NCBI RefSeq assembly: GCF_900103785.1
Contig: NZ_FNHE01000013.1
Coordinates: 1-64,000 of the forward strand
Direction of reading: 5' to 3'
DNA from: Geodermatophilus siccatus
Lineage (GTDB): Bacteria; Actinomycetota; Actinomycetes; Mycobacteriales; Geodermatophilaceae
DNA length: 64,000 nt
The stretch's first letter is position 1. Each line of letters starts with the position of its first letter. The notes under the pieces were generated by a model. The model did not search any database. It saw nothing but the letters and a program-made list of their open reading frames with translations, and was not told the origin of the DNA. A program made the translations under genes and the position numbers. Positions 2,953 to 64,000 of the stretch are shown in pieces.

Positions 2953-2953
<1 letters not shown>
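2651..2953 (+). CDS. ureB: Urease subunit beta
   Basis: A 100-residue UreB with the family opening IPGEVL and the conserved [21 protein letters not shown] block, which packs against the UreC active site. The GTG start overlaps the ureA stop (GTGA). Its TAG stop overlaps the ureC start by one base. Separate ureA and ureB genes are the usual bacterial arrangement, unlike the fused form of Helicobacter. Confidence 0.97.
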
Positions 2954-4673
<1,720 letters not shown>

Positions 4674-4674
<1 letters not shown>

Positions 4675-27759: not shown

Positions 27760-28620
27760 TCACTTGAGCATGTCCTTGGCCTTCTGGAGCAGCGACTGCC
27801 CCGGCATCTGCGGGGTGGAGAACAGCCGCGGGTCGCCGGGCGGCAGGATCGGGGCGTCGGCGGTCGCCTCGATCGGGCGGGCGCGGAACTCCGACCGACC
27901 GTCGACCGACGGGCCCGACGCCCATCGGCCGGCCGAGGCCTCGGGGCCGTCGGAGGCGTCGACGAAGGTGTAGCCGAGGTCGCCGACCTCCTCCTCCAGC
28001 GGGAAGGCCTCGGGCACCGGGATGCCCTCGATGCCGTCGGACTTGAGCTCCTCGGTCGCGGCCAGCCACTGCTGCTGGTGGTAGTGGTCGCGGGTGATGA
28101 GGAACCGGAGCATGTCCTTGACGCCGGGGTCGTCGGTCATGTTGTAGAGCCGGGCCACCTGCAGCCGGCCCTGCATCTCGGCGGTGGCGTTGTACATGAA
28201 GTCGGCCATGAGGTTGCCGCTGGCGGTGACGTACGCGCCGGTCCACGGGTTGCCCATGCTGTCCATGTAGGACGCGCCCTGGCCGTTCTGGATCAGGTGC
28301 TGCGGGTTGTGCTGCCCGTAACCGGCGGCGGCCTCCTTGGTGCGGTCGGCCGAGTCGGGCTTGAGCGGCGCGTGGTCCAGCAGCCGGTCGATCATCGTCA
28401 CGATCATCTCGACGTGCGCCAGCTCCTCCGTGCCGATGGAGAGGAGCAGGTCCTTGTACTTGCCGGGCAGCCGGCAGTTCCAGCCCTGCAGCAGGTACTG
28501 CGTGGCGACCGTCATCTCGCCCCACTGGCCGCCGAGGATCTCCTGCATCTTGCGGGCGAAGTCCGGGTCGGGACCGTCGGGCTTGGCCTCGTACTGCAGG
28601 GCGTGGGTGTGCGTGAACAC
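27760..28620 (-). CDS. Manganese catalase
   Basis: A 286-residue di-manganese catalase. All metal ligands of the Lactobacillus plantarum enzyme sit at identical positions: Glu35, Glu66, His69 (TEELAHVE), Glu148 and His181 (RDHYHQQQW). It disproportionates hydrogen peroxide without haem. The C-terminal 80 residues are a proline-rich extension typical of actinobacterial members. The GTG start follows AAGGGAGA. The 180-nt region upstream to the kinase gene holds its promoter, but no clear box is seen. Fits with the manganese exporter and ergothioneine genes as an oxidative-stress set. Confidence 0.96.
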   Translation of the reverse strand: MFTHTHALQYEAKPDGPDPDFARKMQEILGGQWGEMTVATQYLLQGWNCRLPGKYKDLLLSIGTEELAHVEMIVTMIDRLLDHAPLKPDSADRTKEAAAGYGQHNPQHLIQNGQGASYMDSMGNPWTGAYVTASGNLMADFMYNATAEMQGRLQVARLYNMTDDPGVKDMLRFLITRDHYHQQQWLAATEELKSDGIEGIPVPEAFPLEEEVGDLGYTFVDASDGPEASAGRWASGPSVDGRSEFRARPIEATADAPILPPGDPRLFSTPQMPGQSLLQKAKDMLK

Positions 28621-28800
28621 GGGGTCTCCCTTGCATCGTCGCGACCACCGCCGATGCGGTGACACCAGGGATCTGCCCGCGCCCGGTGGCCCACCCGTGC
28701 CGAGCCCTGGCCCCCGCGTGCCAGGTTGCGTGGCCCGTCGGACGGCACCCGGCCGCGGAGCTCCCGGGGGACGGCGCGAGAAGGGGCCGGAGGCCCTCCC

Positions 28801-62573: not shown

Positions 62574-63173
62574 TCAGCCCGCGAGGGTGCGCACCGTCTC
62601 CACCGCGGCGACGACGGCGAAGACGAGGAACAGCACCGCGGCCACCCGGCGGATCAGCGCCACCGGCAGCCGGTCGGCCAGCTTCTTGCCCAGGAACACG
62701 GCCAGGCCCGAGACGGTGAGCAGCGCGGCCCAGGACCCGACGAAGACCGACACCGGGTCGTCCAGGCGCGCGGCCAGCCCGGCGGTGGCCAGCTGCGACA
62801 GGTCGCCCCACTCGGCGGCGAACAGAACGCCGAAGGAGATGGCGGCGACCCGGAGGAACGACGTCCCCTCCTTGCCGGCCGCCACGTCGTCGGCCTCCTC
62901 CGGGCCCTCCGTCGCGCTGCGCCACAGCAGGACGGCGCCGGCCAGGAAGAGCACCGCCACCACCCCGCTGACCAACGCCTCGGGCAGCAGCGACAGCAGG
63001 CTGCCCGCGGTCACCGCGATGGCGACCTGCAGGCCGAACGCCGTCCCGACGCCGACGAACACCGGCAGGGGCGGGAAGCGGGTGGCCAGGACGAGGCTCG
63101 CGAACAGGGTCTTGTCCGGGAGCTCGACCGGCAGGACGAGCACGAAGGCGGTCAGCACGACCGTCAGGGACAC
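62574..63173 (-). CDS. TMEM165/GDT1 family cation exporter, probable manganese exporter
   Basis: A 199-residue membrane protein with six transmembrane helices in two homologous halves. The acidic motifs are VELPDKTLFASLVLATRF (first half) and FAAEWGDLSQLATAGLAARL (second half), the ExGD(K/R)(T/S) signature of UPF0016; the first copy has Pro in place of Gly. Bacterial members are manganese exporters. A yybP-ykoY-type manganese riboswitch is present in the leader, so expression should rise with manganese. GTG 63173 with GGAAGTGAG upstream. Confidence 0.95.
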   Translation of the reverse strand: MSLTVVLTAFVLVLPVELPDKTLFASLVLATRFPPLPVFVGVGTAFGLQVAIAVTAGSLLSLLPEALVSGVVAVLFLAGAVLLWRSATEGPEEADDVAAGKEGTSFLRVAAISFGVLFAAEWGDLSQLATAGLAARLDDPVSVFVGSWAALLTVSGLAVFLGKKLADRLPVALIRRVAAVLFLVFAVVAAVETVRTLAG

Positions 63174-63249
63174 GGGGTTCTCACTTCCGTCAGGGCGCTG
63201 CCGGACGGATGCGGGCAGCCTCCGACCGGCAGCTGCCGGCGAGGCGACT

Positions 63250-63360
63250 GCGGTCGAAGGTCTCGCCCACCCACGGCCGAGCGTGGGCCCGCTGACCGGG
63301 CGCCCGGGGGCGCCAGCGTGTCGACCAGCGGACGGGGGGCTACTCCCCTTCTCGGCCGGA
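63250..63360 (-). ncRNA. yybP-ykoY manganese riboswitch
   Basis: On the minus strand the leader has GAAGGGGAGUAGC (63339-63351) and, about 80 nt later, GCGAGACCUUC (63256-63266). These are the two conserved internal-loop strands of the yybP-ykoY riboswitch, and GAAGG pairs with CCUUC as P1. Strong GC stems separate them, as in the family. The downstream gene is the classic target of this riboswitch. Element ends are approximate. A further hairpin (CCGGCAGCTGCCGG) and stem before the GTG may form the expression platform. Confidence 0.88.
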
Positions 63361-63413
63361 GAGCCTAACCCAGCGGTGCCCGGAACTCGGCTGCGGGCCG
63401 GGGTGACCCGCGC

Positions 63414-63419
63414 TACGGT
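63414..63419 (+). promoter_or_regulatory. -10 box TACGGT before the MFS gene
   Basis: TACGGT ends 7 nt before GTG 63427, predicting a leaderless start there. That frame meets a TGA at codon 5. Confidence 0.55.
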
Positions 63420-63426
63420 GCGCGCC

Positions 63427-64000
63427 GTGCCGTTCCGTTGACGCCCGGCCAGGGCATCCCTGCCGCCCACCGCCCGGCCGCTCGCGCGCCTGGCGGTGGG
63501 GTGGACCGCGCTGTCCGAGCTGGTGCCGCTGTACCCGCTCTACGCGCTGCTGTTCCTCGACACGGGGCTCTCGGCCGCCGAGATCTCGCTGCTGTTCGCC
63601 GCCTGGTCGGTCACGGCGCTGCTGACCGAGGTGCCGGCCGGGGCGCTGGCGGACCGTTGGTCCCGCCGGGGCGCGCTCGTCGCGGGCGGCGTCCTGGAGG
63701 CGGCCGCCTTCGTCGTGTGGACCGTCGCGCCGCAGTACACCGGCTTCCTCGCCGGCTTCGTCATCTGGGGCGTGGCCGGCGCGCTGGTCTCCGGCACGGT
63801 CGAGGCCCTGGTCTACGACGGCCTGGCCGAGGTGGGCGCCGAGGGCGCCTTCGCCCGGGTCAACGGCGCGATGACGTCGGCCGAGCTGCTGGTGCAGATC
63901 CCGACCGCGGCCGCGGCCAGCGTGCTCTACGCGCTGGGTGGATACCCGCTGGTGGGCTGGGCCAGCGCCGCGGTCTGCCTCGCCTGGGCGGCGCTGGCCC
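63427..64000 (+). CDS. MFS transporter, N-terminal part; in-frame TGA at codon 5; runs off the window
   Basis: From about 63460 the frame encodes an MFS protein: LPPTARPLARLAVGW, TALSELVPLYPLYALLFLD (helix 1), AAWSVTALLTEVPAGALADRWSRRGALVAGG with the MFS loop 2-3 motif, and further helices to the window end. The leaderless GTG at 63427 is in frame, but the fifth codon is TGA (63439-63441). No ATG, GTG or TTG follows until GTG 63496, which lies inside helix 1. Initiation may occur at CTG 63460, or the gene may carry a nonsense mutation. The substrate is unknown; helix 1-5 only. Confidence 0.8.

Follow-up and report, generated by a model that had tools for sequence, protein, structure and literature searches.

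Upstream of a GDT1-family gene in the window, by which we mean the whole 64,000-nucleotide stretch of Geodermatophilus siccatus DNA analysed here, lies what is very probably a manganese riboswitch of a known class, yybP-ykoY, in a compact form that is common in the taxonomic class of its host. Leaving the output step aside, we hold with high confidence that this leader belongs to that class and is built on competition for the P1.1 helix, and we propose that it acts as a cis-acting, Mn2+-responsive ON switch. The structure of the aptamer, the competing hairpin, the family of the gene and the kinship to the Escherichia coli alx element were shown by computation. A sequence-only reading had already proposed a manganese riboswitch in front of a GDT1 exporter, and the anatomy, the covariation, the recovery of alx by a family-built model (R1) and the genes downstream of related elements support that proposal. 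Papers are cited by their PMC accession.

Layout of the GDT1 leader

The features of the locus are as follows.

62574..63173, minus strand: gene for a GDT1 / UPF0016 / TMEM165-family divalent cation:proton antiporter, 199 aa, GTG start at 63173
63180..63191, minus strand: ribosome-binding-site-like purine run GACGGAAGUGAG, from position and composition
63219..63260, minus strand: competing (anti-P1.1) hairpin, arm CCUUCGACCGCAGU (63247-63260) with AGCUGCCGGUCGGAGG (63219-63234)
63251..63354, minus strand: yybP-ykoY (Mn2+) aptamer, P2-less three-way-junction form, from the R1 match and covariation
63256..63260, minus strand: P1.1 3' strand CCUUC, common to P1.1 and the competing hairpin
63261..63264, minus strand: L1 partner strand GAGA, facing the conserved strand
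63265..63268, minus strand: P1.2 3' strand GGGC, pairs with 63337-63340
63270..63287, minus strand: P4 hairpin, from covariation
63289..63298, minus strand: P3.1 3' strand, pairs with 63322-63331
63299..63314, minus strand: P3.2 hairpin, from covariation
63315..63321, minus strand: L3 metal-sensing bulge ACACGCU, between P3.1 and P3.2
63322..63331, minus strand: P3.1 5' strand, pairs with 63289-63298
63337..63340, minus strand: P1.2 5' strand GCCC, pairs with GGGC at 63265-63268
63339..63346, minus strand: L1 conserved strand GGAGUAGC, with partner strand GAGA
63347..63351, minus strand: P1.1 switch helix 5' strand GAAGG, pairs with 63256-63260
63362..63367, minus strand: -10-like hexamer TAGGCT (TANNNT), from its placement in leaders

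A profile search matched the product of the 62574-63173 gene to PF01169 with 132.3 bits (cut-off 27) in two stretches, the two-repeat layout of the family, as the earlier assignment to GDT1 had it. The PF01169 match starts at residue 1-4 in most of the listed GDT1 relatives, and among the best 80 loci the closest proteins are from Geodermatophilus, with 95% identity to that of G. chilensis. The frame stays open across the entire riboswitch, from 62574 up to a GTG at 63470, so that an automatic caller could set the GDT1 start 297 nt too early. When the best 80 GDT1 loci listed were taken together with the window, 58 of the 81 leaders held both conserved strands by motif. In all 58, a TANNNT hexamer begins 15-19 nt before the GGGG of L1 (background 0.00013 per position), suggesting that the transcript probably starts just before P1.1.

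Within the aptamer, to which R1 gives 111 bits (the window being one of its 42 training rows), the 5' strand of L1, GGGGAGUAGC, is closed by P1.1 (63339-63351), and the 3' strand, of the GAGACC type, precedes the 3' strand of P1.1 (63256-63264). Both conserved strands and a closing GAAGG/CCUUC helix had been noticed from the sequence, and we found them as GGGGAGUAG from 63348 downward, GCGAGACC ending at 63259 on the minus strand, and the pairing of 63347-63351 with 63256-63260. Beyond that account, we found L3 (63315-63321), the missing P2 and the competing hairpin (63219-63260). L3 begins with ACA at 63321-63319, and the same first three letters were present in 58 of 58 leaders. In solved structures L3 carries the Mn-binding adenosine, A48 in Xanthomonas oryzae and A41 in Lactococcus lactis, to which the A at 63319 corresponds (PMC6754395). 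By analogy with these solved members, we infer that the leader would bind Mn2+ and that binding would turn expression on.

The window aptamer has no P2 hairpin, and the junction formed by P1.2, P3.1 and P4 is three-way; the Geodermatophilaceae aptamers likewise are P2-less and three-way rather than four-way. The aptamer did not appear in an unconstrained minimum-energy fold of 63174-63400 (z -2.12); folds of single sequences this rich in GC were not counted as evidence.

Covariation, covariance models and known relatives

In a plain MAFFT alignment of 42 distinct Geodermatophilaceae aptamers (A1), 97.6% of cells are paired under the hand-drawn structure, a figure that falls to 34.5-47.3% when partners are slid. 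Eleven pairs showed changes on both sides, against a shuffled mean of 5.2, and none of 500 shuffles reached 11; the count of further pair types was weaker (18 against 15.7 shuffled, with 38 of 500 shuffles as high). P3.1, P3.2 and P4 are supported by covariation in A1, with five of the six P4 pairs changing on both sides within the family. P1.1 and P1.2 are not tested by A1, since they hardly vary there (P1.2 shows no variation), and alignment positions 4-12 and 14, in the region of the L1 5' strand, are invariant across the 42 rows. In the wider alignment A3 (80 distinct rows), 26 of 31 pairs changed on both sides, P1.1 and all four pairs of P1.2 included, and across actinobacteria 537 cells showed such changes against 154.5 after shuffling. 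A3 was fitted to the model and thus leans towards the structure, the covariation support for P1.1 and P1.2 comes from A3 only, and one of its matches, on the opposite strand in L182, is probably an echo.

These counts bear on the reading that the leader is merely a GC-rich stretch, shaped by chance or by coding constraint inside the open frame 62574-63470. That the frame stays open upstream to the GTG at 63470 and that the Rfam model RF00080 is silent on the leader would fit such a reading. However, the covariation exceeds both the slid and the shuffled controls, the signal is present on a structure-blind alignment, and the changes in hairpin-loop length are not multiples of three. Moreover, the pattern GGGGAGTAG-N8..38-TCRACAYRCT has a single occurrence in the 5.2 Mb genome, in the GDT1 leader, with none for a backwards-read control, and it occurs in 35 of 396 genomes of the phylum, as compared with 1 of 396 for the control (counted by eye). 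We regard chance or coding constraint as an extremely improbable explanation.

The sequence-only reading had proposed RF00080 as its own check and had offered the absence of a match above threshold as grounds against itself. RF00080 matched nothing in the window at its cut-off and nothing in 63100-63500 at E<=10; over the genome it reached only 9.4 bits, elsewhere than the leader. We do not consider this silence a fair test, since E. coli mntP scores 41.6 against the cut-off of 45 and none of 296 genomes of the taxonomic class passes it. Nor was the cut-off taken as class-defining, since mntP fails it too. In the class sample RF00080 had 0 of 296 genomes over its cut-off and 11 of 296 at E<=0.01, whereas R1, built from 42 Geodermatophilaceae leaders only, matched 141 of 296 at E<=0.01 in a sample of the same size from the same class. 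Nine of the 11 RF00080 matches coincide, as compared by eye, with R1 matches. RF00080 spans L1, P3.1/L3 and P4 of the same element, but its E. coli alignments end before the GAGACC strand and actinomycete members score low. An older Rfam release scored Corynebacterium glutamicum leaders at 43.7-49.9 bits (PMC3890552), so actinomycetes do not lie wholly within the blind spot. If our reading is true, the standard model misses the element in most of the class genomes where R1 finds it (11 against 141 of 296), and the annotation of Mn homeostasis in this actinomycete group would be repaired. The earlier remark that the GC-rich form would be useful for the family model was borne out. A genome-wide R1 scan gave no second copy of the riboswitch, the next score being 18.6 bits (E 0.44).

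Homology to an experimentally reported member comes from the R1 match to alx, which along with mntP has been reported as a Mn-sensing riboswitch in E. coli (PMC9603457). R1 found the alx leader with 35.8 bits (E 1.6e-7 in 332,542 bases) and all helices aligned. The alx leader is not listed at E<=1 in the RF00080 scan that gave mntP; conversely, R1 does not find mntP, which RF00080 does. The alx match runs end to end, with the same helices, no P2 in the alignment and the strands AAGGGGAGUA and GUGAGACC, but its L3 is of the UCAUUAC type, its GC content is low, and it controls not GDT1 but Alx, an annotated Mn2+ exporter that we take to be of the TerC family. With mntP the window shares L1 and an identical partner strand, GCGAGACC, whereas mntP, as aligned to RF00080, has a P2 helix and the window has none. 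The X. oryzae yybP-ykoY element has the same L1 and an L3 of the ACA type (ACAUACU) but a four-way junction, in contrast to the three-way junction and ACACGCU of the window (PMC6754395). The C. glutamicum terC (cg2157) leader, seen by RNA-seq, belongs to the same class and is likewise from an actinomycete; it differs in controlling terC and in having scored 49.13 bits in the older Rfam release, above today's cut-off of 45 (PMC3890552).

Junction form varies among these relatives. Twelve Pseudonocardiaceae relatives carry extra junction sequence, which by eye looks like a P2 hairpin. Among 67 rows chosen by hand (66 actinobacterial matches and E. coli alx), the spacing was short (14-19 nt) in 54, long in two (36 and 37 nt) and left unscored by the pattern in 11. 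Because 54 of 67 rows have short spacing and alx aligns without P2, we did not take P2 as class-defining. The P2-less form is not new to the yybP-ykoY class, as alx shows, and the idea that it represents a new class was rejected on the same ground.

Could the aptamer sense another divalent metal, such as Cd2+, or be less selective? Its L3 differs from that of X. oryzae at positions 4 and 5 (ACACGCU against ACAUACU), and Cd2+-bound structures are mentioned in PMC6754395. Nevertheless, the sensing adenosine and the C-G pair adjoining L3 are kept, the residue after the sensing A varies between the crystal structures too (U in X. oryzae, A in L. lactis, according to the same paper), and families of Mn exporters (GDT1, TerC, MntP) lie downstream in 61 of 66 rows. 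Sensing of another metal appears very unlikely.

The competing hairpin and its output

The 3' strand of P1.1 is also part of a hairpin immediately downstream. In the class, Mn2+ stabilises P1.1 and so blocks a competing terminator (PMC11087558 and PMC6754395). In the L. lactis yybP element upstream of yoaB, as in the window, the switch helix is P1.1, whose 3' strand lies in the competing hairpin, but the L. lactis hairpin is an intrinsic terminator, whereas that of the window has no U-tract (PMC11087558). The sharing of the P1.1 3' strand with the competing hairpin suggests a Mn-ON layout (compare PMC11087558).

Constrained folding was applied to 54 of the 58 leaders; L024, L028 and L047 were dropped because of a wrong start and L020 because its start was not found. 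When the P1.1 5' strand was held open, the 3' strand paired downstream with a probability above 0.5 in 53 of the 54, the exception being L040. With shuffled downstream sequence it was captured in 5 of 54, the mean probability being 0.89 for the real and 0.29 for the shuffled sequence. We also examined 66 diverse leaders, that is, the 67-row set, alx included, less L187, in which the partner strand was not found. In 54 of these no more than 5 of 100 simple shuffles equalled or surpassed the duplex, whose arms change together; the remaining 12, among them E. coli alx (11 of 100), missed this mark.

In the 36 Geodermatophilaceae leaders no U-tract was seen after the competing hairpin: the T fraction of the next 10 nt was 0.147, against a leader background of 0.13. 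This test excluded duplexes weaker than -12.5 kcal/mol, and kept 50, 36 and 12 leaders. An intrinsic terminator with a U-tract was rejected, as there is no U-run 3' of the hairpin.

By analogy with solved members, we propose that at high cytosolic Mn2+ L1 and L3 would dock around the ion through N7 of the adenosine at 63319, and that the docked loops would stabilise P1.1 (63347-63351 with 63256-63260). At low Mn2+ the GC-rich hairpin 63219-63260 would instead capture the P1.1 3' strand, and the GDT1 cation/proton antiporter, likely a Mn2+ exporter, would be weakly expressed. The hairpin may stop transcription, either as a terminator without a U-tract or with the help of Rho or NusG; alternatively, it may act on translation. 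In the translational form, the same aptamer in its Mn2+-bound state would re-pair a Shine-Dalgarno-like 3' arm, GGUCGGAGG, with an anti-Shine-Dalgarno sequence and so free the ribosome site. By eye, the arm in the window could pair with GCAUCCGUCC, and GCAUCCGUCC with GACGGA of the ribosome site, and in four relatives (L179, L194, L204 and L210) the arm is Shine-Dalgarno-like and lies 7-8 nt before the start codon. In the window, however, the hairpin ends 44 nt before the start codon, and forcing P1.1 in the 54 folded leaders gave no consistent release of the ribosome site: the mean change in predicted accessibility was -0.02, with a rise of more than 0.1 in 11 leaders and a fall in 14. Accessibility in the window itself dropped by 0.37. 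In 13 of the 54 (L006 and 12 Pseudonocardiaceae) the five-pair P1.1 is incomplete, and only the pairing positions were forced. Constrained folding does not, therefore, support translational release, and we see translational control as a possible but rather doubtful alternative. A stop of transcription by the U-less hairpin seems somewhat more likely, a preference reached by elimination only. In the available parts of the literature on the yybP-ykoY class we did not meet an output mode based on a U-less hairpin. The U-less hairpin offers a substrate for testing actinobacterial attenuation, and what makes the element valuable is the repair of annotation together with a testable question about its expression platform.

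Downstream genes and loss of the element

A cation-transport gene follows 64 of the 66 hand-picked actinobacterial matches: GDT1 in 55 (46 by tblastn at E<=1e-4 and 9 by Pfam), TerC in four, a Na/Ca exchanger in three and MntP in two. The other two have no recognised transporter, L179 being followed by a product of no family and L204 by a GreA/GreB-like frame. The statement in the sequence-only reading that GDT1 is a known partner of this riboswitch is already in print: yybP-ykoY controls a UPF0016 member in 328 of the 333 screened bacterial strains that have one (PMC7380456). If our reading is true, a likely Mn2+ exporter is under riboswitch control in Geodermatophilus-like soil bacteria. No title among the literature matches listed, which cover few subscription papers, names a Mn riboswitch of Geodermatophilus or Streptomyces.

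In three matches (L113, L207 and L112) the Mn-riboswitch-like aptamer lies upstream of a sodium/calcium exchanger family protein (PF01699), suggesting that these exchangers may export Mn2+. In four class genomes the arm that competes for P1.1 is itself Shine-Dalgarno-like, a simple translational layout; these are L194 and L210, which precede TerC, L179, which precedes an unrecognised small protein, and L204, which precedes the GreA/GreB-like protein.

Of the 81 GDT1 leaders, 22 were scored as having no element, which indicates that the gene can do without the riboswitch. On a tree of the 81 GDT1 proteins its presence requires 12 changes, at least 9 of them forced by well-supported branches, against a shuffled mean of 19.7. 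Although the tree by itself cannot separate losses from gains, the flanks are shared, which favours losses, and repeated loss of the element seems to have taken place within Geodermatophilaceae. In this count L057 allows no judgement, with only 44 nt upstream; L045 has 208 nt, L056 was taken to have the element, and L051 sits on an extremely long end branch. L056 (1660-1763), which is outside the 58 motif leaders, scores 50.1 bits with R1 but has no GAGACC strand; L006 (2330-2432), which is inside them, has a broken P1.1 in which GAAGG faces CCCCC. Both look like decaying copies. The riboswitch-free L004 (Geodermatophilus sp. DSM 45219) falls within the five-row group of the window, and still has the -10-like site as well as a stretch of purines ahead of the start. 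Sister genes with and without the riboswitch make up a natural set.

Eleven riboswitch-free GDT1 leaders (L004, L008, L012, L016, L023, L025, L027, L035, L042, L049 and L063) keep both TANNNT and the purine run. By eye, a CTGCCCG...CCCGGCAG-type hairpin is present in 10 of the 11, the exception being L004.

The broadest reading, that actinomycetes have a widespread, compact, P2-less subclass of Mn2+ riboswitch that governs GDT1 exporters through a conserved U-less competing hairpin, is mostly overlooked by RF00080 where R1 finds it, and has been lost many times within Geodermatophilaceae, is in our judgement an even bet.

Two other features of the window were considered. The manganese catalase to which the sequence-only reading had tied the riboswitch is real (27760-28665, minus strand; PF05067, 306.7 bits), but the link is merely one of context: the R1 scan gave no riboswitch match near the catalase, and its lone strong match is at GDT1. 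The sole Rfam match over cut-off in the window is 5_ureB_sRNA at 3117-3406 on the minus strand (43.7 bits against 40, with a bias of 35.3). It lies antisense within the frame 2953-4674 (plus strand), presumably the urease alpha subunit, and probably reflects coding conservation rather than an RNA gene.
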